Assembly (NCBI RefSeq): GCF_008630635.1
Contig: NZ_CP043869.1
Coordinates: 558,001 to 622,000, forward strand
Length of the DNA: 64,000 nt
Direction of reading: 5' to 3'
Source: Neptunomonas concharum
GTDB lineage: Bacteria > Pseudomonadota > Gammaproteobacteria > Pseudomonadales > Balneatricaceae
The position numbers and the translations under genes are program-made. Of the stretch, positions 8,649-49,567 are shown one piece after another (positions within the stretch are counted from its first letter, which is position 1; each line of letters starts with the position of its first letter). Under the pieces are notes generated by a model. That model was not told the DNA's origin. It made no database searches and saw only the letters and a program-made list of their open reading frames with translations.

Positions 8649-9317
8649 ATGAGTATATCAGAAGGCTTATTAACCGGGCTTTGGTTATGGTGGCTACATG
8701 CTATTTATGGACTTGCGCTAGGCTATGCATTCTATCGAGCACCTTGGCGGACAGTTGTCAGTAATAAAGGGCTTCAGCATCTTTTCTTTGGAGCGACTGT
8801 ACTGTTAGCTTTAATGTGGAGTATGCGAGCGGGTATTTCTCCTGGCCTGAGCATTCACTTTTTGGGAATGACGACCTTGACCCTGATCCTTGGTTGGGAC
8901 TTGGCGGTATTGTCAGGTAGCTTGGTTTTACTGGCCATGACATTGATTGGTAAGGAGAGTTGGGATGGTCTATCGGCTAACGGACTATGCTTAGTGATCA
9001 TTCCGGCGCTGCTTTCCCATGTTATTCATCAGTGGGTGGAGCGACTTTTCGGGAAAAATTTCTTTATCTACCTTTTTCTGTGTGCCTTTCTTGGATCGGC
9101 TATCATTATTGCTATATCCGGTCTATCCATGAGTTTGTTGCTATGGTTTGACGGTGTCTATCCTTGGAATAAAATTGAGCACGAGTATGTGCGTTATCTG
9201 CCTTTGATTATGTTCCCAGAAGCCCTCATGAATGGCATTTTAATGACGGGGATTATGGTTTTTTACCCAGACTGGATTCGTACGTTTGATGCAAAAGCCT
9301 ATATAGATGAGCAATAG
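8649..9317 (+). CDS. CbiM-like (ECF-type) integral membrane protein
   Basis: A 222-residue, very hydrophobic protein with about six or seven membrane spans. The sequence SPGLSIHFLGMTTLTLILGWDLAVLSG resembles the core of CbiM/NikM substrate-capture proteins of energy-coupling factor metal transporters, and the LPLIMFPEALMNGILMTG segment near the end is also typical. The hallmark N-terminal Met-His metal-binding motif of true CbiM is not seen, and no CbiN, CbiQ or CbiO gene is nearby. It therefore belongs to the orphan branch of unknown function. It converges with regA. Confidence 0.7.
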   Translation: MSISEGLLTGLWLWWLHAIYGLALGYAFYRAPWRTVVSNKGLQHLFFGATVLLALMWSMRAGISPGLSIHFLGMTTLTLILGWDLAVLSGSLVLLAMTLIGKESWDGLSANGLCLVIIPALLSHVIHQWVERLFGKNFFIYLFLCAFLGSAIIIAISGLSMSLLLWFDGVYPWNKIEHEYVRYLPLIMFPEALMNGILMTGIMVFYPDWIRTFDAKAYIDEQ

Positions 9318-9325
9318 TCTCATCT
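9305..9325. repeat. Hairpin at convergent gene ends
   Basis: AGATGAG (9305-9311) and CTCATCT (9319-9325) form a 7 bp stem with a 7 nt loop, spanning the stop of the CbiM-like gene. There is no T-run, so it is at best an mRNA 3'-end-stabilising hairpin. Confidence 0.4.
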
Positions 9326-9335
9326 GGACTATCTA

Positions 9336-9875
9336 TTACTGCCTAACAGGATGCTTGGAGAGTTTTCTCTGTAAGGTTCTTCGGTGCATACCCAAAGCGC
9401 GGGCAGTGGCGGAAATATTGCCTTCATGCTCAGCCAATACTTTCTGTATATGTTCCCACTCCAGTCGATTGACTGACATAGGCTGTGGAGCTATCTCAAT
9501 ACTTTCATCCGGGGTCGTCTGCTCTAAAGCTTGCAATATATCGTCTGCATTAGCCGGTTTCGGGAGGTATTGGGTTGCCCCTAACTTTATCGCTTCCACG
9601 GCGGTGGAGATGCTGGCATAGCCAGTTAGTACAACAATTTTGATATCTGGATTGACAGCAGTGAGGGCGGGGATAACGGTCAGCCCTGAGGCACCTTCCA
9701 TCTTTAGATCCAATGAGGCGTAATCAGGTTGCCACTCTTGTAATAGATCAATGGCATTTTCTGCACTGCGTGCTACTTTAACGTCAAAGCCGCGACGGGT
9801 CATAGCGCGGGATAAGACGCGAGTGAAGGTTGCGTCATCATCAACAATTAAGAATGATTTTGCCGTTTCAGCCAT
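9336..9875 (-). CDS. regA: RegA/PrrA/RoxR family redox response regulator
   Basis: A 179-residue two-domain response regulator. The receiver domain has the acidic pocket VDDD (residues 11-14), phospho-acceptor Asp56 in SLDLKMEG, and Lys104 region LPKPAN. A Fis-type helix-turn-helix (ISATARALGMHRRTLQRKL, 154-172) ends the protein; these features define the RegA/PrrA/ActR family that controls respiration and redox genes. I chose the ATG at 9875 because CCAGGAG lies nine bases upstream; a longer reading to 9932 has no such site. It overlaps the regB end by 8 bp, so the pair is coupled. Confidence 0.9.
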   Translation of the reverse strand: MAETAKSFLIVDDDATFTRVLSRAMTRRGFDVKVARSAENAIDLLQEWQPDYASLDLKMEGASGLTVIPALTAVNPDIKIVVLTGYASISTAVEAIKLGATQYLPKPANADDILQALEQTTPDESIEIAPQPMSVNRLEWEHIQKVLAEHEGNISATARALGMHRRTLQRKLSKHPVRQ

Positions 9876-11115
9876 GTACAGATCTCCTGGAAAGGCGGAC
9901 TTCAGTGACGGTGCCCCGCTCTTGGGCAGCATAGAGTTTTACCTCGCCATCATGTCTGGCCAGTGTAGTTGAAGTTAAAAACAATCCAATCCCTAAACCT
10001 CTGCCTTTAGTCGTGATAAAAGGCTTGCCAAGCTCACTGGCTTTATCAATAGGTAGCCCTGGGCCGCTATCTTTGATCATTAACCAAATATCAGTTTCAT
10101 CCCAACTAAGGTCTATGTGTATATTGTGCGGGCAAGCATCTGCGGCATTATTCAGCAGGTTTAAAATCGCTTGGCGTAGGGCTGTATTGCTGCGAAGGTC
10201 GGGGGGGAGGTCATCTTGCACGGTTAAGTGGTAGGTGACCTCTGGGCGTGTGATTTTCCACTGTTCAAGTACTTCGCTCAGAAACTCGGTCACTAAGGAT
10301 GTTTTTTCACTATTGTGCTCTTCTGCAACGGATCGAGCCATAGTTTGTAGTTTATCTGCGCAGATTTCTACTTGCTGCTGCAAGATGGCAATATCCTCTT
10401 TTTGTTCTTCAGAAAGAGAAGGGTCCAGATCCATTTCATGTAATAACACACGCATCGTGCTTAAGGGAGTGCCTAATTCGTGAGCCGTACCGGCCGCCAT
10501 GGTGCCAAGAGCCAGAATTTGTTGATTGTGTACCTTTGCCTCTCGTGCCTCGATCAGTCTTTGCTGCTGGTGTTGGATAGTGCGGTTGATGCGGACAATG
10601 AAGTAAGTAATCACGATCACTGTCATGATGAAGTTTAGCCACATACCAACCATATGAATATCAAACAACGCGCTGAGCGAGTGCTGGTGACCTGTGTCTT
10701 TGATCACGGGAATGTAATACACCAGCAACGAGCCATAAATGGCTGTCACGGTAATGGCCATCATCCAAATATAACGGCTATCGAGGGTCATGACGGTAAT
10801 AATTAATGGGATTAGTAGCATGAAAATAAAGGGATTGGTGCCTCCTCCTGAATGGTAAAGAATAAAACCATAAACGATGGAGTCAGCCAGTAGTTGTGAA
10901 AAGAGTTCGGGTTGTGTGACCGGCCAAGGTGAATGCAGTCTGGCATAGGTCATTAAGTTGAGTAATCCTAATAAACCTAAAGCAGAGCCCAGAGCCCATG
11001 GGTCTAGATCTATATGCAGATATAAGAGCGCAAATACAACGGCACAACACTGGCCAAGCAGTATCACAAATCGAATATAAGTTAGTTGCAGTAACTGCTG
11101 ATGATTCCCCGACAC
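9868..11115 (-). CDS. regB: RegB/PrrB/RoxS family redox sensor histidine kinase
   Basis: A 415-residue membrane kinase. About six N-terminal membrane spans contain GGGTNPF (residues 90-96), the conserved ubiquinone-binding heptapeptide of RegB. The H-box is GTMAAGTAHELGTPLSTM with His212, and Cys252 lies exactly 40 residues later in VEICADKL, the spacing of the redox-active Cys265 from His225 in Rhodobacter RegB. The ATPase domain has LNNAADA, DSGPGLP and TKGRGLGIGLFLT. Start is GTG at 11115 after AGGGGG. It signals to the overlapping regA product. Confidence 0.92.
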   Translation of the reverse strand: MSGNHQQLLQLTYIRFVILLGQCCAVVFALLYLHIDLDPWALGSALGLLGLLNLMTYARLHSPWPVTQPELFSQLLADSIVYGFILYHSGGGTNPFIFMLLIPLIITVMTLDSRYIWMMAITVTAIYGSLLVYYIPVIKDTGHQHSLSALFDIHMVGMWLNFIMTVIVITYFIVRINRTIQHQQQRLIEAREAKVHNQQILALGTMAAGTAHELGTPLSTMRVLLHEMDLDPSLSEEQKEDIAILQQQVEICADKLQTMARSVAEEHNSEKTSLVTEFLSEVLEQWKITRPEVTYHLTVQDDLPPDLRSNTALRQAILNLLNNAADACPHNIHIDLSWDETDIWLMIKDSGPGLPIDKASELGKPFITTKGRGLGIGLFLTSTTLARHDGEVKLYAAQERGTVTEVRLSRRSVHG

Positions 11116-11220
11116 GAGAGCCCCCTCACATGGACAGTGAAGTATAACGGAAATTGGTTTGTTTGTGATTGAGGCAGATTGTCGCAGTGCTAAAGTTTCT
11201 GAGGCTAAGAATTATCTCCA

Positions 11221-11240
11221 TTCATTGTTTATCGAATGAA
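11221..11240. promoter_or_regulatory. Inverted repeat in the regB-prfC spacer
   Basis: TTCATT and AATGAA arms separated by 8 bp lie in the 229 bp divergent spacer, about 105 bp from each start codon. A possible operator; no regulator is proposed. Confidence 0.25.
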
Positions 11241-11344
11241 GATCAGCGAAAATAGCAATCATTAATACTTTTAACCCCACAAGCCGTTAATACTCCAAAG
11301 GGAATATTTTCGTTGAGTTTGTGTCTACTTCAGAAGATCTATTC

Positions 11345-12928
11345 ATGTCTAATGCTATTGCTACAGAGGTTGCTAAACGCCGCACCTTTGCCATTATCTC
11401 TCACCCTGATGCGGGTAAAACGACGATCACAGAGAAATTACTCTTGCTGGGTAATTTGATACAAAAAGCAGGGACGGTAAAGGGTAAAAAAAGCGATCGT
11501 CATGCAACATCTGATTGGATGACGATGGAGCAGGATCGTGGGATTTCAATTACTTCCTCTGTTATGCAGTTTCACTGGAATGAGCGTATTGTTAACTTGC
11601 TCGATACCCCAGGTCATGAGGACTTCTCCGAAGATACGTATCGTACCCTGACCGCGGTGGACTCAGCACTGATGGTAGTTGATGGAGCAAAAGGTGTTGA
11701 GGAACGTACCATTAAGTTAATGGATGTATGCCGACTGCGTGACACGCCTATTTTTTCCTTTGTGAATAAAATGGACCGAGATATTCGTGATCCCATTGAA
11801 TTATTTGATGAAATCGAAAATGTTCTGAAAATAGAAGCGGCCCCGATTAATTGGCCTATCGGTATGGGGCGTTTCTTCAAGGGTGTGTACAACCTTTACA
11901 CTGATACGATCCATGTTTTTAAGGCAGGGCAGAACGCTGTTGTACCTGAGGATATTCGTATTCAAGGGTTGGACTCAGACGAGGCGCGTGCTTTGTTGGG
12001 CGATGAGTATGGCGATTTTGTTGATGAAATAGAGTTGGTGCGGGGAGCTACCTACGAATTTGATGTGGAAGCATTTTTGGCAGGTAAGCAGACCCCGGTT
12101 TTCTTTGGCACGGCGCTGGCTAATTTTGGCGTGCGAGAAATGTTGGATGGTTTCACTGAATGGGCACCTTCACCTATCAGCCGAGAAACAATAACGCGTA
12201 CTGTGGAAGCTGATGAGGCTAAGTTTTCTGGTTTTATCTTTAAAATTCAAGCCAATATGGATCCAAAGCACCGAGATCGTATTGCCTTTATGCGCATCTG
12301 CTCTGGTCGTTATAGCCGGGGTATGAAAATGAAACATGCCCGTATCGGTAAAGACGTTAAAATTGCGGATGCGGTAACCTTTTTAGCGGGTGATCGTGAA
12401 AACGTAGAAGAGGCTTGGTCTGGCGATATAATTGGTTTACATAACCATGGCACGATTCAGATCGGTGATACGTTTACAGAAGGTGAAGATCTTAAGTTCA
12501 CCGGTATTCCCCACTTTGCACCGGAGATGTTTCGTCGTGTGCGCCCGAAAGATCCGCTGAAAATGAAACAGCTGCAAAAAGGCTTGCAGCAATTATCGGA
12601 AGAAGGGGCAGTACAGTTGTTCCAACCTCTGAAAAATAATGATCTGGTTTTAGGGGCGGTAGGCCAGTTACAGTTTGAAGTGGTTATGTTCCGACTCAAA
12701 GATGAGTATAAGGTTGATTGTATGTACGAGCCGATTTCCGTTCAAACGGCCCGTTGGATTGAGTGCGATGATAACCGTATGCTTGAGGATTTCCGTAAGA
12801 AAGGCTACGAAAACTTGTCGGTTGATGGCGGGAATCTACTCACCTACCTAGCGCCGACGCGCGTCAATCTTAGTTTGATGGAAGAACGTTGGCCTGACAT
12901 CCGCTTCCGCGCAACGCGGGAACATTAA
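11345..12928 (+). CDS. prfC: Peptide chain release factor 3
   Basis: RF3 is the translational GTPase that recycles RF1 and RF2 after stop-codon release. G-motifs are clear: [14 protein letters not shown] (G1), DRGISITSS (G2), [15 protein letters not shown] (G3) and FVNKMDRD (G4). The start at 11345 ([15 protein letters not shown]) gives 527 residues, the usual RF3 length; an in-frame GTG at 11321 would add eight unconserved residues. Neighbouring holD, rimI and a YjjV-type TatD gene recall the E. coli holD-rimI-yjjG-prfC-yjjV region. Confidence 0.96.
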
Positions 12929-12950
12929 TAACACTTAAGGAGTGATCGAG

Positions 12951-13736
12951 ATGGCGTATTTGCTGATTGATAGCCACTGCCATCTCGACTTTCCTGTTTT
13001 CGATGACTCGCGTGATCAGGTACTCAAACGTGCTCAGGCGGTAAATGTTGCCCATATTGTGGTTCCGGGTGTCGTAGCTCGGGACTTCCCTCGTGTCTTA
13101 GCTGTTCAGCGTGCTTATCCTGAGACTGTAAGTATTGCGCTGGGTTTACACCCTTGTTTTATGAAAGAGCACGCCCAGACAGATGTGGAGGTGCTAGCTG
13201 CTTATCTGGATACGACACCTGTGTGTGCATTAGGGGAGATCGGGCTGGACTTCTATGATAAGGAAGCTGATAAAAAAGCCCAGCTAGCGCTGTTAAAGGC
13301 ACAAATTAAGCTGGCTAAAGCCCATCAACTGCCGCTCATTTTACATGTTCGCAAAGCGCATGATGAGATGCTAAAAGTCCTACGTGAGATGCAGTTTTCA
13401 GAAGGTGGTATTGTGCATGCGTTTAGTGGCAGTGAGCAGCAAGCGCATCGCTATATTGATCGGGGGTTTTTAATCGGTGTGGGTGGTGCAATTACTTACT
13501 CGCGCGCGCAGCGCTTAAGGTCTGTGATCGCTAAGCTACCTTTGCAGGCGCTAGCGTTAGAAACGGATTCGCCCGATATGCCGTTAGATGGGTTTCAGGG
13601 TAGGCCAAATGAGCCGGCGCGTATGTCAGTGGTACTAGATACGCTATCCGCTTTGAGAGGGGAATCTAGAATCGTGTTAGGTACAGAGATAACGAAGAAT
13701 ACCCGCCAAAAGTTAAATCTTTCGACGGGTGTTTGA
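12951..13736 (+). CDS. yjjV: TatD family metal-dependent hydrolase (YjjV-like)
   Basis: A 261-residue TIM-barrel metallohydrolase of the TatD family, members of which show DNase activity. Metal-binding motifs are DSHCHLD near the start, GEIGLDFY, a LHVRKAHDE histidine, VHAFSG and the terminal ETDSPDM aspartate. The ATG at 12951 has AAGGAG eight bases upstream; an upstream GTG at 12942 falls inside that ribosome site and is rejected. It follows prfC by 22 bp, probably in the same transcript. Confidence 0.88.
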   Translation: MAYLLIDSHCHLDFPVFDDSRDQVLKRAQAVNVAHIVVPGVVARDFPRVLAVQRAYPETVSIALGLHPCFMKEHAQTDVEVLAAYLDTTPVCALGEIGLDFYDKEADKKAQLALLKAQIKLAKAHQLPLILHVRKAHDEMLKVLREMQFSEGGIVHAFSGSEQQAHRYIDRGFLIGVGGAITYSRAQRLRSVIAKLPLQALALETDSPDMPLDGFQGRPNEPARMSVVLDTLSALRGESRIVLGTEITKNTRQKLNLSTGV

Positions 13737-13738
13737 GA

Positions 13739-14140
13739 TTAGTCGTAAATATACTTATAGATACGTTTTAGTTCGCGCCATGTCGTATTTGTCGCATCAT
13801 TTTTGGGAATACGGTAGCGTGAGCCGGAGTTGTCAATTGGTGTGCCCTTATAGCTTCCATTCTCTGGGAAAACCAGCATCTGCATCAGGCTGCGAGGATA
13901 GTTTGGCCCCACAACTTGCTGATTATAAACGCTTTCAATGACGGGCAAGTCCCCATCTTGGCTGGCAATGATGCTAAAGCTGATGCAATCACCGCTATCG
14001 CCAATACACATATTGCCAGACTGCGCGTCGACCAAGTAATAGCTGGTATCCCTTTTCTCCGGTACTAGAGAGCTGGTGGAGATGCAGCCGCCTAACAATA
14101 AGGTAGTCACTATTACGGGTAGCAGTGTCCTTTTTTTCAT
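13739..14140 (-). CDS. Putative lipoprotein of unknown function
   Basis: A 133-residue protein with signal peptide and lipobox LLGGC (MKKRTLLPVIVTTLLLGGC). The mature part contains two cysteines in GNMCIGDSGDCISF that could pair, and a C-terminus with SGSRYRIPKN and TTWRELKRIYKY. The ATG at 14140 has GGAG nine bases upstream and starts the signal peptide correctly; the longer reading to 14185 would run into fabY. It is 19 bp downstream of fabY and likely cotranscribed. No family recognised. Confidence 0.7.
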   Translation of the reverse strand: MKKRTLLPVIVTTLLLGGCISTSSLVPEKRDTSYYLVDAQSGNMCIGDSGDCISFSIIASQDGDLPVIESVYNQQVVGPNYPRSLMQMLVFPENGSYKGTPIDNSGSRYRIPKNDATNTTWRELKRIYKYIYD

Positions 14141-25698: not shown

Positions 25699-26457
25699 AT
25701 GCCTGCCGTAAATTTCAAACACGCCCAATATAAACGAATTCTACTTAAACTCAGTGGTGAAGCGCTGATGGGAGAGGAGAATTTTGGAATAGACCCGAAA
25801 GTGCTGAATCGTATGGCGCTAGAAATTGGTCAACTCGTAGGTATCGGGGTGCAGGTGGGTATTGTTATTGGTGGTGGTAATTTGTTCCGTGGTGCTGCTT
25901 TAAGTGCAGCTGGGCTGGACCGTGTTACCGGCGACCATATGGGTATGTTGGCAACCGTTATGAATTCTTTGGCGTTACGAGATGCGCTCGAACGCTCGAA
26001 TATAGCAACACGTGTGATGTCTGCTATTCCTATGAGTGGTGTGGTTGACCACTATGACCGACGCAATGCGATGCGCTATCTTAGCCAGGGCGATGTGGTT
26101 ATATTCTCTGCTGGCACGGGTAATCCTTTCTTTACTACGGATTCTGCGGCTTGCCTGAGAGGTATCGAGATAGAGGCAGATGTGGTCTTGAAGGCGACAA
26201 AAGTTGATGGTGTTTTTACGGCTGATCCGATGAAAGACCCTTCTGCTAAGCGTTACTTGCATCTTTCCTATGATGAAGTATTGGATAAACAATTAGGTGT
26301 GATGGATTTGACGGCGATCTGCCTGACGAGGGATCACGATATGCCGGTTAGAGTTTTTAATATGAACCGACCAGGCGCTTTGGTTAATCTGCTAAGTGGG
26401 GGTGACGAAGGAACCCTGATTAGTGGTGAAGTAACAGGAGATGGTTATGCTGAATGA
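25699..26457 (+). CDS. pyrH: UMP kinase
   Basis: PyrH phosphorylates UMP to UDP and is a hexameric amino acid kinase-fold enzyme regulated by GTP and UTP. The start at 25699 ([23 protein letters not shown]) gives 252 residues and has GGAG seven bases upstream; reading further upstream runs into the tsf-pyrH hairpin. Motifs: [42 protein letters not shown] and [13 protein letters not shown]. It overlaps frr by 11 bp. Confidence 0.97.
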
Positions 26458-27004
26458 AATTATTCAAGATGCTGAAGTACGCATGAAAAAAAGTATTGAA
26501 GCGTTGATTGAACACTTTAAGAAGATTCGTACCGGGCGTGCTCATCCGAGTATCCTTGATTCCGTTCAGGTGATGTACTACGGATCGCCAGTTCCACTTC
26601 AGCAGGTTGCTAACATCTCTGTTGAAGATGCGCGTACGTTGATGATTTCTCCTTGGGAAAAACAGATTGTGCCCGATGTTGAGAAAGCCATTTATAAGTC
26701 TGATTTAGGTCTAAATCCTGCTACGAATGGTGGTGTTATTCGCGTACCTATGCCGCCGTTGACGGAAGAAACGCGTAAAGGCTACACGCGTCAGGCGCGC
26801 CTTGAAGCTGAGACAGCACGTGTATCAGTACGTAATATTCGTCGTGATGCTAACTCAGACTTGAAAGAACTGTTGAAAGCGAAAGATATTTCGGAAGATG
26901 AAGAACGTCGTGGCGAAGATTTGATTCAGAAGTTGACAGACAAGTATGTCGCTGAAGTGGATAGTTTGCTTGAGAAGAAAGAAGCCGACTTGATGGAAAT
27001 CTAA
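26447..27004 (+). CDS. frr: Ribosome recycling factor
   Basis: RRF splits post-termination ribosomes together with EF-G. The start at 26447 ([20 protein letters not shown]) gives the standard 185 residues with AGGAG six bases upstream; an ATG two codons earlier at 26441 abuts that site and is rejected. Motifs [24 protein letters not shown] and PPLTEETRK are conserved. It starts inside the end of pyrH. The next gene is uppS; dxr, which follows frr in E. coli, is not here. Confidence 0.97.
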
Positions 27005-27013
27005 TTCAGCAGC

Positions 27014-27037
27014 AGGAGGGCCAGTTAGTTCTGGCCT
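27014..27037 (+). promoter_or_regulatory. Distant AGGAGG site and hairpin before uppS
   Basis: AGGAGG (27014-27019) is a perfect Shine-Dalgarno sequence but lies 32 bp before the uppS ATG. A 6 bp hairpin, GGCCAG with CTGGCC (27019-27036), sits between them and partly covers the site. The bases directly before the ATG (TCTGATTCATTTT) contain no ribosome site. Confidence 0.35.
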
Positions 27038-27051
27038 GTCTGATTCATTTT

Positions 27052-27816
27052 ATGTCAGTACATGAAAAGCTAAATATTCCGCCTGAAAAGGTGTTGCCCA
27101 AGCATATAGCCATTATTATGGATGGAAATAATCGTTGGGCGAAAATGCGTAGACTACCTAGCTTAGCTGGCCATAAAGCTGGTGTTGATAGTGTGCGTAG
27201 TGTCATTGAGGGTTGCATGGAGTTTGGTGTTGAATCGCTAACTCTGTTTGCATTTAGTAGTGAAAACTGGAAGCGACCCGAATTAGAAGTGAAAGGCCTC
27301 ATGGAGCTGTTCATGCTGGCTTTGGATCGAGAAGCGAAGAAACTTCATAAGAATAATATTCGACTTAACGTCATTGGTGATAAAAGTCGTTTCAGTGCAA
27401 GCTTGCAGCAGAAAATAGCGAAAGTTGAAGCGCTAACGGCAGATAACACGCAGCTTAATCTAAATATCGCAGCAAACTATGGTGGTCAATGGGATATTCT
27501 GCAAGCTACCCAGCGTTTTGCAGAGGCTTGTGTGCAAGGTAAGCTTAAGCCTGAAGAACTCACGGAAACGCTATTTGATAGTTATATAACGCTTCATGAC
27601 CAAGCTAAACCTGATCTGTGCATTCGGACAGGTGGAGAGAGTCGAATCAGTAACTTCTTGATTTGGCAAATGGCGTATACAGAGTTTCACTTTGTTGACG
27701 ACTTTTGGCCTGACTTTAACAAGGCTTCGCTCGCAGAGGCTATTCGTGACTTTTGTACCCGTGAGCGTAGATTTGGTAAAACAAGTGAACAATTAGAGGC
27801 TGGGGTCGGTGCTTAA
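27052..27816 (+). CDS. uppS: Undecaprenyl diphosphate synthase
   Basis: UppS is the cis-prenyltransferase that makes the C55 lipid carrier for wall and LPS synthesis from farnesyl and isopentenyl diphosphates. The 254-residue protein has the catalytic Asp24 in IIMDGNNRWAK, then AGHKAGVDSVR, TLFAFSSENWKRP, and the RTGGESRISNFLIWQ motif with IPP-binding arginines and serine. Its use of IPP makes the absence of dxr, ispD and ispF nearby more striking. It overlaps cdsA by 8 bp. Confidence 0.97.
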   Translation: MSVHEKLNIPPEKVLPKHIAIIMDGNNRWAKMRRLPSLAGHKAGVDSVRSVIEGCMEFGVESLTLFAFSSENWKRPELEVKGLMELFMLALDREAKKLHKNNIRLNVIGDKSRFSASLQQKIAKVEALTADNTQLNLNIAANYGGQWDILQATQRFAEACVQGKLKPEELTETLFDSYITLHDQAKPDLCIRTGGESRISNFLIWQMAYTEFHFVDDFWPDFNKASLAEAIRDFCTRERRFGKTSEQLEAGVGA

Positions 27817-28621
27817 ACAAAGAATATTAACCGCTTCTATATTGGCACCGATTGTCTTGTGTGGTGTGTTTTTATTGCCTCTTGAGGCGTTCGCTGTTTT
27901 TATGGGAGTGGTAACACTACTGGGCGCTTGGGAATGGGGGCCGCTGTCAGGTATTCGTTCACCTGCGTTGCGTCTAGCTTATGTGATGGTGGTGTTTCTC
28001 TCTTTAATACTCTGCTGGGGTTTGTTTGGGGCTGGTATTGAACTCTATCTTCTTCTCCCTGCGTTGCTGTTGTGGTGTATTAGTTTTGTGTGGGTTCTAC
28101 GTTACCCGGCGGTAGGGGGGTGGTCTAGCTCGGTGGTCAGGTTGGCTATCGGCGTACTGGTTCTGGCTGCTGCATGGTTAAGCCTACTTAAGCTAAAATC
28201 CTTGGAATCAGGTAATGCATGGCTTTTGTTGGTTTTGCTTATCGTGTGGGCCGCTGATATTGGTGCCTACTTTTCCGGGAAGCGGTGGGGAAAGGTAAAG
28301 CTAGCACCGAATGTCAGCCCCGGTAAGACGCGAGAGGGTGTGTATGGTGGTTTAGTCGCTGTTGTGGTGACGGCTCTGATTTTTGCGCTATGGAATGAAC
28401 TGACAGGTGCAGCAATAGTCTATTTGGTTCTACTGAGTATTATTGTGGGCTTTGTTTCTGTTATGGGCGATCTGTTTGAAAGCTTATTGAAACGTTTTAC
28501 TGGCATTAAAGATAGTGGTTCGATTCTGCCAGGTCACGGAGGTGTGCTTGATCGCATCGATAGTATCTTGGCGGCAGCCCCGTTTTTCTGCCTAGGTCTC
28601 TACTTCTTACCAATAAATTGA
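27809..28621 (+). CDS. cdsA: Phosphatidate cytidylyltransferase
   Basis: CdsA makes CDP-diacylglycerol from CTP and phosphatidate, the branch point of phospholipid synthesis. The 270-residue, multi-span membrane protein ends with the family signature SVMGDLFESLLKRFTGIKDSG followed by LPGHGGVLDRIDS. The start is GTG at 27809, inside the uppS end, so it is translationally coupled. Only 7 bp separate it from rseP; in pseudomonads dxr sits in this gap. Confidence 0.96.
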   Translation: MLKQRILTASILAPIVLCGVFLLPLEAFAVFMGVVTLLGAWEWGPLSGIRSPALRLAYVMVVFLSLILCWGLFGAGIELYLLLPALLLWCISFVWVLRYPAVGGWSSSVVRLAIGVLVLAAAWLSLLKLKSLESGNAWLLLVLLIVWAADIGAYFSGKRWGKVKLAPNVSPGKTREGVYGGLVAVVVTALIFALWNELTGAAIVYLVLLSIIVGFVSVMGDLFESLLKRFTGIKDSGSILPGHGGVLDRIDSILAAAPFFCLGLYFLPIN

Positions 28622-28628
28622 CGGTCTA

Positions 28629-29984
28629 ATGGATATATTACAAACCATATTAGCGATGATTGTCACGTTAGGTATTCTCGTGACCATCCATGAATGGGGG
28701 CATTACTGGGTTGCTCGCAGGTGTGGTGTCAAGGTGCTACGCTTTTCAGTTGGTTTTGGTAAACCGCTCTGGATGCGTAAAGGAGCAGATGGTACAGAGT
28801 ATGTGGTGGCAGCTATTCCTCTTGGTGGGTTTGTGCGCATGCTGGACGAGCGAGAAGGGGAGGTTGCAGAGTCCGAAAAGTCAATGGCTTTTAATAATAA
28901 ACCCGTTTTGCAGCGTATCGCTATTGTAGCAGCAGGGCCGCTTGTTAACTTGTTATTTGCGGTTTTTGCCTATTGGTTGATGTTTGTGGTGGGTGTGTCT
29001 GCTATTGCTCCTGTTATTGGGGGACTGAAACCCGACTCGCCAGCAGCATTCAGTGCTTTACCTATCGGTTCGGAAATTGTCTCTATTAATGATTCTAAAG
29101 TTCAATCTTGGGAAGAGGTTAATCTTCAGTTAGCCGCTCATGTGGGAGAGACAGGTAATATACGAGTGGGTGTTAAACCGTCTGTGAGTGCTGAACCTCA
29201 GATCTACACAGTCAACCTGATTGATTGGAAAGTAGATCTTGAGGTGGAATCGCCTGTTTCGGCTATGGGATTGGTGCCATTCAGGCCTGAAGTTAAACCA
29301 GTCTTAGGTCAGGTTGTTGAAAAAAGTCCTGCAGATTTAGCAGGTTTGAAGGTTGGAGATCGTATCGTATCTATCGAAGGCACCCCTGTGTCGACTTGGG
29401 GTACCCTTGTTGAGTTGGTTCAGGATTCAGCGGATAGGTCGCTGTTGTTTGATATAGAACGTGATGGGCAACGCTTTACCTTTGAGGTGACGCCGCGTGC
29501 AGAGGCGGCCGCTGATGGGCAATCGATAGGTAAGATTGGCGCTGGTGTGCGCTTACCTGACTGGCCCGAGTCTATGCAACGGAGTATCCAGTACACACCT
29601 TTTGAAGCGATATCTGAAGCAATTAATAAAACACTTCATATGATAGCGCTGACATTAGATTCGATTTGGAAGATGATAGAAGGTGTTATCTCTGTAAAAA
29701 ACTTGAGTGGCCCGATAACCATTGCTAAAGTGGCTGGTGCCTCTGCGGCATCGGGGTTTGAGCCATTTATCAGCTTTCTTGCTTACCTTAGTATCAGTTT
29801 AGGTGTACTAAACCTTCTTCCTATTCCTGTTTTGGATGGAGGGCATTTGGTTTATTACACAATTGAATTGTTTCGCGGAAAGCCGGTTAGTGAAAGAATA
29901 CAGCTAGTAGGTTTTAAAATAGGGATGACATTATTATTGTCATTGATGACGCTGGCTATTGTTAATGATGTAATGCGTCTATAG
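28629..29984 (+). CDS. rseP: Site-2 protease RseP
   Basis: RseP is the inner membrane zinc metalloprotease that cleaves RseA to release sigma-E in envelope stress, and clears signal peptides. In its 451 residues the HEWGH zinc motif is at 21-25 in the first membrane span. Two periplasmic PDZ domains follow (about 115-200 and 205-290), and the third ligand motif NLLPIPVLDGGHL is in the C-terminal membrane region. It precedes bamA, itself a usual sigma-E target. Confidence 0.97.
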   Translation: MDILQTILAMIVTLGILVTIHEWGHYWVARRCGVKVLRFSVGFGKPLWMRKGADGTEYVVAAIPLGGFVRMLDEREGEVAESEKSMAFNNKPVLQRIAIVAAGPLVNLLFAVFAYWLMFVVGVSAIAPVIGGLKPDSPAAFSALPIGSEIVSINDSKVQSWEEVNLQLAAHVGETGNIRVGVKPSVSAEPQIYTVNLIDWKVDLEVESPVSAMGLVPFRPEVKPVLGQVVEKSPADLAGLKVGDRIVSIEGTPVSTWGTLVELVQDSADRSLLFDIERDGQRFTFEVTPRAEAAADGQSIGKIGAGVRLPDWPESMQRSIQYTPFEAISEAINKTLHMIALTLDSIWKMIEGVISVKNLSGPITIAKVAGASAASGFEPFISFLAYLSISLGVLNLLPIPVLDGGHLVYYTIELFRGKPVSERIQLVGFKIGMTLLLSLMTLAIVNDVMRL

Positions 29985-44484: not shown

Positions 44485-45798
<1,314 letters not shown>

Positions 45799-45854: not shown

Positions 45855-46160
45855 ATGCTATTCGTGTTTCGCTGGTTTCTATTCGTGCTGATTATCATTT
45901 TTCTAGGTTTGCAGTACCGCTTATGGTTTGGCGAAGCTAACCTACTATTAGTCCGGCAGCTAGAAAACCAAATAGCAGATCAACAGAGTGAGAATGAACG
46001 TTTGCAAACACGTAATAGACAGCTCGAAGCAGAAGTGATGGATTTAAAAAAAGGTTTATCGGCCATTGAGGAGCGTGCTCGAAGCGACCAAGGGATGATT
46101 AGGCAAGGAGAAACGTTCTATCAATTGGTTGAGCCATCCCCGGTTCGAAAGGAAAAATAA
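45855..46160 (+). CDS. ftsB: Cell division protein FtsB
   Basis: FtsB forms the FtsQLB complex that activates septal wall synthesis. The 101-residue bitopic protein has a single N-terminal membrane span (residues 2-20), the conserved LQYRLWFGEANLL junction, and a coiled coil (about 30-70). It ends with the EERARSDQGMIRQGETFYQLV region matching E. coli [21 protein letters not shown]. GAGG lies only one base before the ATG, so the GTG at 45864 is a possible alternative start. Three bases separate it from truD; ispD and ispF are absent from this position. Confidence 0.93.
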   Translation: MLFVFRWFLFVLIIIFLGLQYRLWFGEANLLLVRQLENQIADQQSENERLQTRNRQLEAEVMDLKKGLSAIEERARSDQGMIRQGETFYQLVEPSPVRKEK

Positions 46161-46163
46161 AGC

Positions 46164-47207
46164 ATGAATCTGCCTACTGATTATCAGTTTCTTTATGGCA
46201 AGCCTGTGAGCCGCGCCATTATTAGGCATACTCCGGAAGATTTTCGAGTATCAGAAATACCCTCATTCTTACCGGAAGGTGAAGGTGAGCATGTATTTCT
46301 CCTGATACGTAAAACGGGTGAAAATACAGACTGGGTTGCTAGGCAGCTGGCTGGCTTTTGCCAAATACCTGTTAATGATGTGGGATATGCGGGTAAAAAA
46401 GATCGTCACGCCGTTACCGAGCAATGGTTTAGTGTGAAGTTACCTATTAACAGGCAGATGACATGGTCTTTATTTGGCGGTGAAACCATTCAGGTTTTAA
46501 AAGCAGAGCGGCATCTTCGAAAACTAAGACTGGGCTCTCTATTAGGAAATCGCTTTTCATTACGTCTGCGCAATGTCACAGATGAGCAGTCCTTTATAGA
46601 GCGTATTGATATGATTAAGTCAGGTGTTCCTAATTACTTTGGGGAGCAGCGTTTTGGGTTCGATGGCGGGAATCTCGCGAAAGGTGTCGCATTATTAAAA
46701 GGCGAGTTTAAAGAGCGTCAACGTCATAAAAAAGGTTTGTATATTTCGGCGGTACGCTCTTGGTTATTTAACCATTGTGTTTCTGAGCGAATTCGACAAA
46801 ATTTATGGAATACTATTTTGCCGGGAGATGCGATGGTGCTCTCCGGTAGTAAAAGCCACTTTGTCGCTGAGGCGCTAGATGAAGTGTTGCCTGAGCGTTT
46901 AGCTAAAGGCGATGTGCATCTGAGCGCTCCCCTTTGGGGAAGAGGGCGCTTACAGAGTACAGATGAGGCAGCCGAGTGGGAGTCCAAAACGGTAGAACCG
47001 TGGGACGAAATCACAGAGCGTCTTGCATACGTCGGGCTACAGCAAGAGCGTAGATCGATGCGACTGATACCTGACGGGTTGCAGGCTGAAAAAGAAGCGG
47101 ATGGCACTTGGCTATTGAACTTTTCATTACCTGCTGGCGCATTTGCTACCAGTGTACTTAGAGAGCTATGTGATTTTTCTCAGGAAGGGCCGGAACCGCA
47201 GCCATGA
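46164..47207 (+). CDS. truD: tRNA pseudouridine(13) synthase TruD
   Basis: TruD makes pseudouridine 13 in tRNA-Glu. In the 347-residue protein the catalytic Asp80 is in [16 protein letters not shown], the same position as in E. coli, and [11 protein letters not shown] is the second signature. It overlaps surE by 4 bp. Its direct contact with ftsB marks the missing ispDF genes. Confidence 0.95.
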
Positions 47208-47956
47208 ATAATATTTTGATATCAAATGATGATGGAGTGTTTGCGCCGGGCTTGGCTGCGTTAGCTAATGCTCTATCTGAGGTGGCATCGATTCAAGTTG
47301 TTGCCCCAGATAGAAACCGTAGTGGAGCAAGTAATGCGCTTACTCTTGATAGGCCTGTCGATGCTCATCGTCATGATAATGGCTTTGTAAGCTTGTCTGG
47401 GACACCAACGGATTGTGTTCATATGGGAGTGTCGGGTCTTTTTGGTGCGGTGCCGGATATTGTGGTCTCTGGTATTAATGCGGGTGCCAACCTAGGCGAT
47501 GATGTTATCTATTCAGGCACAGTGGCCGCAGCGATGGAGGGCCGCTCATTAGGGTTGCCGCCGATTGCTGTCTCTTTAGCGGGGCATTACCCTAAGCACT
47601 ACGAAACAGCGGCTGCAATTGCGAAAACGATCGTTGAAAATGTAAGCTCTTTAGGGCTGCCAGCAAGGTCTGTTCTGAATGTTAATGTGCCAGATCTACC
47701 TCTTAGTGACATTCAAGGTATTCATATTACTCGGCTAGGCCATCGTGCAGCAGCAGGCAAACCAGAAAGTTCAAAAGATCCGCGGGGTAAGGTTCGGTAT
47801 TGGGTAGCGGGTGCTGGGGATGCTTTGGATAATGCCCCGGGTACGGACTTTTATGCGGTTGAGCATGGGTTTGTTTCGATCACTCCCCTGCATATTGATA
47901 TGACATTTTACCCAGGGATGGAACGATTAGGAGACTGGTTGGAGGGTTTGCTTTGA
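47204..47956 (+). CDS. surE: 5'/3'-nucleotidase SurE
   Basis: SurE is a survival-related nucleotidase that also trims short polyphosphate. The 250-residue protein starts with the metal-binding pair Asp9-Asp10 in [11 protein letters not shown], then [29 protein letters not shown] and [24 protein letters not shown]. It overlaps truD and pcm by 4 bp each, giving a coupled truD-surE-pcm string. Confidence 0.97.
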
Positions 47957-48618
47957 GTAGTGTTCAGCTGCAAGGGATAGGTATGACCTCGCGGCGTACA
48001 AGGGAACGTCTGGTTACACGCTTGCGTGAGCAAGGTATAAAAAGCCTGCCCGTATTGGATGTTATATTAGGTACGCCGCGTCACCTCTTTATTGATGAGG
48101 CGCTAGCGCACAGAGCGTATGAAGACACGGCTTTACCCATTGGCTTCAATCAGACGATTTCCCAGCCCTATATTGTTGCTAGAATGACGGAGCTTTTGCT
48201 TTCTGAGGGTGTGGTGAAGTCAGTACTTGAAGTAGGTACAGGGTCAGGGTATCAAACAGCAGTTTTGGCCCAGTTGATCGATAAAGTCTATTCCGTTGAG
48301 CGTATTAAGCCCTTGCAGTTAAAAGCAAAGGAACGATTTCGCGTTATGGGGCTGAGAAATATTTATCTACAGCACTCTGACGGCGGTATGGGGTGGCCAT
48401 CTATGGCACCTTTTGATGCCATCATTGTTACCGCAGCACCTGAATCCATTCCTGAAGAGCTTCTAGAGCAGCTAGCAATAGGTGGGCGACTGGTGATTCC
48501 TGTGGGGCAAAACCAGCAAGAGCTTAAATTAGTGGTTAAAAAATCTGATAAAGAGTTTGAAACTCGAATAATTGAGCGCGTAAAGTTTGTACCGCTGCTT
48601 TCGGGAACGGTACGTTAA
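47953..48618 (+). CDS. pcm: Protein-L-isoaspartate O-methyltransferase
   Basis: Pcm methylates isoaspartyl residues in ageing proteins, the first repair step, and is typically found with surE and rpoS. The methyltransferase motif I is [16 protein letters not shown], preceded by the substrate motif [27 protein letters not shown] at 47953, overlapping the surE stop with GGAGGG six bases upstream, gives 221 residues; the ATG at 47983 ([10 protein letters not shown]) matches pseudomonad starts and has AAGGG upstream. Both are plausible. Confidence 0.92.
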
Positions 48619-48628
48619 GGAGAAACAT

Positions 48629-49567
48629 TTGAATCAGAAGCGCTCGCCTAAAGAATATATATTACTGGCCTTGAAAGGCATGATGATGGGTGCTGCGGAT
48701 GCAGTCCCTGGGGTATCTGGCGGTACGATTGCTTTTATTACCGGGATATATGAAGAATTGATTGGGAGTATTCGTCGTTTTGATCTTGAGGCACTGAAAT
48801 TACTCTTGAGTAAAGGAATAGGTGCTTTTTGGCAGCATGTGAACGGTAATTTTTTGGTGACGCTTATTGGTGGAATAGTGATTAGTCTTGCCAGCTTTGC
48901 CCACATTGTCCTGTTTTTACTTGATCATTATCCGGTTCTTCTGTGGTCTTTCTTTTTCGGTTTAATATTGGCCTCGACATGGGTAATCGGGCGGCATATT
49001 CCACGTTGGGACCTTTCTATGATCATGATGTTTTCTGTGGGAGCATTAAGTGCTTACTTGGTCACATCCATGTCACCAACGCCAATAGAGGCAACCCCTG
49101 TGTTTTATTTCGTATCAGGTGCGATTGCTATTTGTGCGATGATCTTGCCTGGTATTTCTGGCTCGTTTATCTTACTGCTGTTGGGTATGTATACCCCCGT
49201 TTTACAAGCTGTTAAAACGTTTGATGTGATCTCACTGGGTCTGTTTCTGAGTGGCTGTGCTATTGGTATTCTCAGTTTTTCACGAGTGCTGACATGGTTG
49301 TTTCAGCATTGTCGGTTAGTAACGTTATCTTTGTTATCAGGTTTTTTATTGGGATCCTTGAATAAGGTCTGGCCTTGGAAGTACACCACATCCTATACCA
49401 TTGATCGACATGGTGAACAGGTGCCGTTGGTTCAAAGCAATGTTTCACCTTTTAGCTATGAGGCACTGACAGGACAAGAATCTTATGCACTATTTGCTCT
49501 ATGCTTGTTAATAGTAGGAGCGGTGATAGTGTTACTAATGGAAAGAGGACAAACACCTGTTAGGTAA
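48629..49567 (+). CDS. DUF368 membrane protein, likely undecaprenyl-phosphate carrier (PopT type)
   Basis: DUF368 proteins were recently linked to recycling of undecaprenyl phosphate across the inner membrane. This 312-residue, multi-span protein has the twin family repeats: GMMMGAADAVPGVSGGTIAFITGIYEEL near the start and AICAMILPGISGSFILLLLGMY in the middle. The start is TTG at 48629 with AAGGAG six bases upstream; the longer frame from 48587 runs inside pcm. It is 10 bp after pcm and 3 bp before nlpD. Pseudomonas and E. coli have no gene here. It pairs functionally with uppS upstream. Confidence 0.85.
   Translation: MNQKRSPKEYILLALKGMMMGAADAVPGVSGGTIAFITGIYEELIGSIRRFDLEALKLLLSKGIGAFWQHVNGNFLVTLIGGIVISLASFAHIVLFLLDHYPVLLWSFFFGLILASTWVIGRHIPRWDLSMIMMFSVGALSAYLVTSMSPTPIEATPVFYFVSGAIAICAMILPGISGSFILLLLGMYTPVLQAVKTFDVISLGLFLSGCAIGILSFSRVLTWLFQHCRLVTLSLLSGFLLGSLNKVWPWKYTTSYTIDRHGEQVPLVQSNVSPFSYEALTGQESYALFALCLLIVGAVIVLLMERGQTPVR

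Follow-up and report, generated by a model that had tools for sequence, protein, structure and literature searches.

Bacteria that have the mevalonate (MEV) pathway and lack the MEP pathway made up 12.03% of the 4,249 species surveyed in PMC13001223, according to the accessible text of that paper. A mevalonate gene cluster is known from Paracoccus zeaxanthinifaciens, whose gene order is given in the accessible part of PMC6742980, citing Humbelin et al. 2002. For three species of Marinobacterium, the accessible part of PMC5291501 reports a cluster that shares conserved gene order and more than 50% identity with that of Candidatus Liberibacter, and suggests an ancient transfer. As far as their accessible texts go, two other papers on Marinobacterium (PMC8398569 and PMC10868613) deal with isoprenoid quinones only, PMC11559095 and PMC8560859 contain nothing on the family of Neptunomonas concharum, and the main text of PMC13001223 names no member of that family, though its species table may list some. 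Among the papers listed in the literature searches, none describes a family-wide loss of MEP genes.

The window analyzed in this study is a stretch of 64,000 nucleotides from the chromosome of N. concharum (Balneatricaceae), and it contains the places where several MEP genes would be expected. In E. coli, dxr sits between frr and uppS. In the window, frr (ribosome recycling factor, 26441..27004, + strand; PF01765 (RRF), E 2.4e-67) and uppS (undecaprenyl diphosphate synthase, 27052..27816, + strand; PF01255 (Prenyltransf), E 1.1e-81, and TIGR00055 above cut-off) are separated by an empty gap of 47 bp (27005..27051), and cdsA (cytidylyltransferase family, 27809..28621, + strand; PF01148 (CTP_transf_1), E 3.3e-60) and rseP (site-2 protease, 28629..29984, + strand; PF02163 (Peptidase_M50), E 3.9e-72, with NF008046 and TIGR00054 above cut-off) by 7 bp (28622..28628). 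The initial annotation had described both gaps as free of genes, which the coordinates bear out, and had reasoned that IPP must still be needed because uppS is retained; the two model matches confirm uppS, the product of which uses IPP.

The emptied place was identified by comparison with the loci of relatives. A sample of 194 genomes of the order gave an uppS match in 188, and the 30 best uppS loci were compared, 5 of them from the family (N. concharum included) and 25 from outside it. In all 25 outside loci dxr is found directly 3' of cdsA, whereas in all five loci of the family it is rseP that is found there; two further loci of the family (G103 and G131) also run from cdsA to rseP, which makes 7/7 with N. 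concharum included. One of the five dxr query loci in this reading gave no usable frame. The absence of dxr between cdsA and rseP (25/25 present outside the family, 0/5 inside) is not due to chance. Because dxr follows cdsA in the 25 outside loci and was found between frr and uppS in none of them, the place emptied in the lineage of N. concharum is the one between cdsA and rseP. The earlier claim that both canonical places are empty is correct, with this refinement as to which of them was emptied. Among the family loci, the uppS match of one genome (G156, L073) has one in-frame TGA.

The order of genes further along the window is eno-ftsB-truD-surE-pcm, with eno (enolase, 44503..45798, + strand; PF00113 and PF03952), ftsB (DivIC/septum formation initiator family, 45855..46160, + strand; PF04977, E 1.7e-25), truD (46164..47207, + strand; PF01142, E 5e-61) and surE (47204..47956, + strand; PF01975, E 2.5e-60). 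Only 3 bp (46161..46163) lie between ftsB and truD, so the initial annotation was right that ispD and ispF are missing from their locus. Outside the family, G048 and G006 have ispD and ispF in a ftsB-truD gap of 1.2-1.3 kb, and in another genome of the family (G037) that gap is 14 bp as judged by the ends of the matches. Six stretches from outside the family were taken for this comparison and two were informative (L212 and L218); L213 and L217 stop before truD, L215 had no match, and L214 has a ftsB-truD gap of 4.9 kb. Judged from these gene orders, the dxr and ispD-ispF blocks both look cleanly deleted. The gene after pcm (48587-49567) matches PF04018, the VCA0040-like undecaprenyl phosphate translocase family, and is another isoprenoid-carrier gene.

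The genome, a single contig of 3,561,992 bases (3.56 Mb) listed as 100% complete, was searched as a whole for the remaining MEP genes. No match was found in it to the models for dxr (PF02670), ispH (PF02401), ispG (PF04551) or ispF (PF02542), and the same models matched 10, 10, 9 and 9 of 14 control genomes, respectively. The archaeon Methanocaldococcus jannaschii was among the controls matched by the dxr and LYTB models, which shows that these models are not strictly specific and argues against a false absence rather than for one. The GHMP model PF00288 found three proteins only, all within the mevalonate locus described below, and thus there is no ispE. At ftsB-truD, its usual locus and the one checked, ispD is absent. 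The loss of the MEP pathway proposed in the initial annotation is supported by these results. The finding that it had named as a refutation, a complete MEP set elsewhere on the chromosome, can be dismissed for all the genes after dxs but one: five of these six were searched for throughout the genome, and ispD at its usual locus only. The gene for the first step is present: dxs encodes 582 aa (TIGR00204, 719 bits, over the cut-off) and lies directly after ispA, which is retained alongside uppS. The genome also has pdxJ.

The suggestion that IPP is supplied through mevalonate instead is supported by the finding of a six-gene operon in the order mvaA-idi2-mvaS-kinase-kinase-mvaD. All six genes are on the minus strand of one stretch (L005, C1:2504001-2522000) and overlap or are no more than 15 bp apart. 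They are mvaA (HMG-CoA reductase, HMGR; L005 14111-15145), idi2 (type 2 IPP isomerase, 13080-14111; TIGR02151, 355 bits, cut-off 281), mvaS (HMG-CoA synthase, 11892-13064; TIGR01835, 515 bits, cut-off 360), a first GHMP kinase (10849-11892; PF00288), a second GHMP kinase (9936-10871; PF00288, and over the NCBIfam cut-off for mevalonate kinase) and mvaD (diphosphomevalonate decarboxylase, 8948-9946; TIGR01240, 300 bits, cut-off 171), the last of which is under the cut-off of the phosphomevalonate decarboxylase model NF040704. The HMGR gene is the only one found in the genome, and its product is over the Pfam cut-off for PF00368 but at 290 bits falls far under the cut-off of 441.8 of the NCBIfam equivalog model. 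Of the mevalonate enzymes that the initial annotation had listed for a search, HMG-CoA synthase, HMG-CoA reductase and diphosphomevalonate decarboxylase were found, while the assignment of mevalonate kinase met with conflicting evidence.

By NCBIfam, only the second kinase of N. concharum passes the mevalonate kinase cut-off, and two second kinases from other families pass it as well (in those genomes the second kinases alone were scanned). A comparison of profiles with those of two Streptomyces clusters favours the opposite naming, since mevalonate kinase gives the higher score with the first kinase and phosphomevalonate kinase with the second. BLAST agrees with the assignment from the Streptomyces profiles for 8/8 first kinases and 7/9 second kinases, and so does the gene order printed for Paracoccus in the accessible part of PMC6742980. 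The lysine of the APGK motif is kept in the first kinase (8/8 sequences) and replaced by S or N in the second (9/9). By elimination, the two predicted GHMP kinases should be a mevalonate kinase and phosphomevalonate kinase pair, barring a phosphomevalonate kinase that is not a GHMP protein. An annotation that follows the model cut-offs may name the second kinase mevalonate kinase and conclude that phosphomevalonate kinase is lacking; a gap of this kind is reported for Legionella in the accessible text of PMC13001223.

To follow this exchange beyond N. concharum, 390 genomes of the order were sampled, 18 of them from the family, with MEP loss in relatives judged on dxr only. HMGR was found in 130 and dxr in 344 of the 390 genomes; 91 had both, 39 had HMGR without dxr and 7 had neither. 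HMGR by itself is a poor marker of MEP loss, as 91 of the 130 genomes that bear it keep dxr. A short type of HMGR, in which the Pfam match starts at profile position 31-41 of 368, was found in 22 genomes, namely all 18 of the family, one of family f6 (G225) and three of family f8 (G338, G356 and G373). All 22 lack dxr, compared with 24 of the 368 others, so that every sampled member of the family (18/18) combines a short HMGR with the absence of dxr. Of the seven dxr-lacking genomes without HMGR, five are 74-97% complete (G031 97%) and the other two are G247 and G339. The six-gene order was read in N. concharum, in 8/8 further family genomes taken and in the 4/4 outside genomes with the short HMGR; for the other 9 family genomes the evidence is the HMGR match only.

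Among the best 80 matching contigs of named genomes, a set that may omit the records of N. concharum itself, the closest were Neptunomonas antarctica, another Neptunomonas and N. japonica, and the others included Neptuniibacter, Amphritea, Marinobacterium, Nitrincola, Motiliproteus, Balneatrix and Pokkaliibacter. The full six-gene order is present in 68 of these 80, with the other 12 being partial or split hits. A full six-gene operon with an HMGR 78% identical was also seen in a record titled Lentisphaeria bacterium UBA2565 (L179), which is either a transfer or a wrongly binned contig. In Nitrincola sp. A-D6, two contigs of a single assembly (L135 and L136) each have a short-type HMGR, with 84% identity, which reflects either a duplicate operon or a mixed assembly.

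The observed presence, absence and order of genes almost certainly mean that an ancestor of the family acquired the six-gene mevalonate operon and then lost the MEP genes downstream of dxs; the horizontal acquisition, the enzyme activities and kinase roles, and the reason why dxs was kept are predictions drawn from those observations. The acquired operon would have brought HMG-CoA reductase, Idi2, HMG-CoA synthase, two GHMP kinases and diphosphomevalonate decarboxylase. IPP would then be made from acetoacetyl-CoA by way of HMG-CoA, mevalonate, phosphomevalonate and diphosphomevalonate, and Idi2 would supply DMAPP, so that IspA and UppS are fed as before. DXS was presumably retained because DXP is also a precursor of pyridoxal phosphate (through PdxJ) and of thiamine.

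Three other explanations were considered. The window by itself would be compatible with intact MEP genes that had simply moved, with dxr merely gone from its usual places. However, relocation was rejected on the genome-wide absences: in a genome listed as complete, dxr, ispF, ispG and ispH all went without a match, and every GHMP protein belongs to the mevalonate locus. Short of a replicon that the assembly lacks, we regard relocation as exceedingly improbable. A type II DXR (DXR-like, DRL), described for some bacteria in the accessible part of PMC3847144, would be missed by PF02670 and could in principle replace DXR in a pathway that is still running. This too has next to no probability and was set aside, since the losses extend to the later steps, with ispF, ispG and ispH absent and no GHMP protein left as a candidate for ispE. 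It might also be supposed that the operon is auxiliary or catabolic only and that IPP or polyprenols are imported, given that the operon functions are predictions and that some bacteria lack both pathways according to the accessible text of PMC13001223. Yet a single operon contains candidates for each of the six steps that lead from HMG-CoA to DMAPP, HMGR at least is kept in all 18 dxr-lacking genomes of the family, and uppS and ispA are retained, all of which make import very unlikely. Replacement of the MEP genes by the acquired operon is therefore the reading we prefer.

As to where the operon came from, an HMGR tree was made from 50 chosen loci, of which three without a hit were dropped, and it used 27 of the best 80 named contigs. 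The short HMGRs form a clade with support of 100/100. A long stem separates this clade from the longer HMGRs that represent the order in the tree, which are 35-39% identical to the short type. The HMGR of N. concharum groups with two Neptunomonas species (support 85/77), and two other contigs labelled Neptunomonas are placed elsewhere. A phylum sample of 398 genomes gave 21 HMGR matches, among which the only near ones outside the family were G572 (71%) and G414 (68%), which belong to the same class but to other families. Among the Streptomyces plasmid records, 18 matched, and 17 of these have an HMGR 63-69% identical. Taken together, these sequences point to a likely transfer between distant bacteria, in one direction or the other. 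Composition gave no sign of a recent transfer, as the G+C of the operon (0.469) is close to that of the window (0.463), and its arrival was thus probably not recent. The Streptomyces cluster (L203 and L204, on plasmids) looks mosaic, with an HMGR 67-68% identical and the other genes 26-48%, and the Streptomyces HMGR is nested near Balneatrix in the tree, where sampling is sparse.

We lean slightly towards the view that mevalonate took the place of the MEP pathway on several occasions within this one order, by way of three or more distinct gene modules. The first is the six-gene operon, present in all sampled genomes of the family (as read or by way of HMGR), in one genome of f6 and in three of f8 (two genera). 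The second was read in family f39 (G039, L066:6831-9119), where a single protein of 762 aa joins an HMG-CoA reductase to a GHMP kinase. Its gene adjoins those for a further GHMP protein and a diphosphomevalonate decarboxylase, and the genome lacks dxr. In f39, 14 genomes combine HMGR with the absence of dxr, and in each of them the open frame at the match is at least 752 aa long, with the domain scan covering G039 alone. The third, in genus g105 of family f16 (G209, L065), has two GHMP proteins and a decarboxylase together with an HMGR match and an HMG-CoA synthase that is 537 aa long. G209 and G288, the two g105 genomes sampled, are without dxr, while it is present in the other f16 genomes and likewise in other members of f6, f8 and f39. 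If this view is right, the order would be a natural series for the study of how an essential pathway is replaced.

IspG and IspH are iron-sulphur enzymes. The replacement proposed here predicts that isoprenoid synthesis is independent of both, that the organisms are insensitive to fosmidomycin, and that dxs is kept for vitamins alone. It would amount to a clean swap of an essential pathway throughout the sampled genomes of a marine gammaproteobacterial family, and the sites of deletion can be recognized by comparison with close relatives.

Systems of this kind are already known. In having MEV without MEP, N. concharum resembles the MEV-only bacteria in the accessible text of PMC13001223. The cluster of P. 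zeaxanthinifaciens, as described in the accessible literature, has the same six functions and the same order (mvaA-idi-HMGS-kinase-kinase-decarboxylase), but it belongs to an alphaproteobacterium; the comparison made here is with its published gene order. The Streptomyces cluster (L203 and L204) also has the same six functions and an HMGR 67-68% identical, but its order is mvk-mvaD-pmk-fni-HMGR-HMGS and its other five genes are 26-48% identical. As for the cluster shared by Marinobacterium and Liberibacter, Marinobacterium contigs are among the best 80 relatives found here; the accessible part of PMC5291501 does not deal with a loss of MEP genes, either for Marinobacterium or for the rest of the family. 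The point added by this study is the family-wide and apparently clean deletion of those genes.
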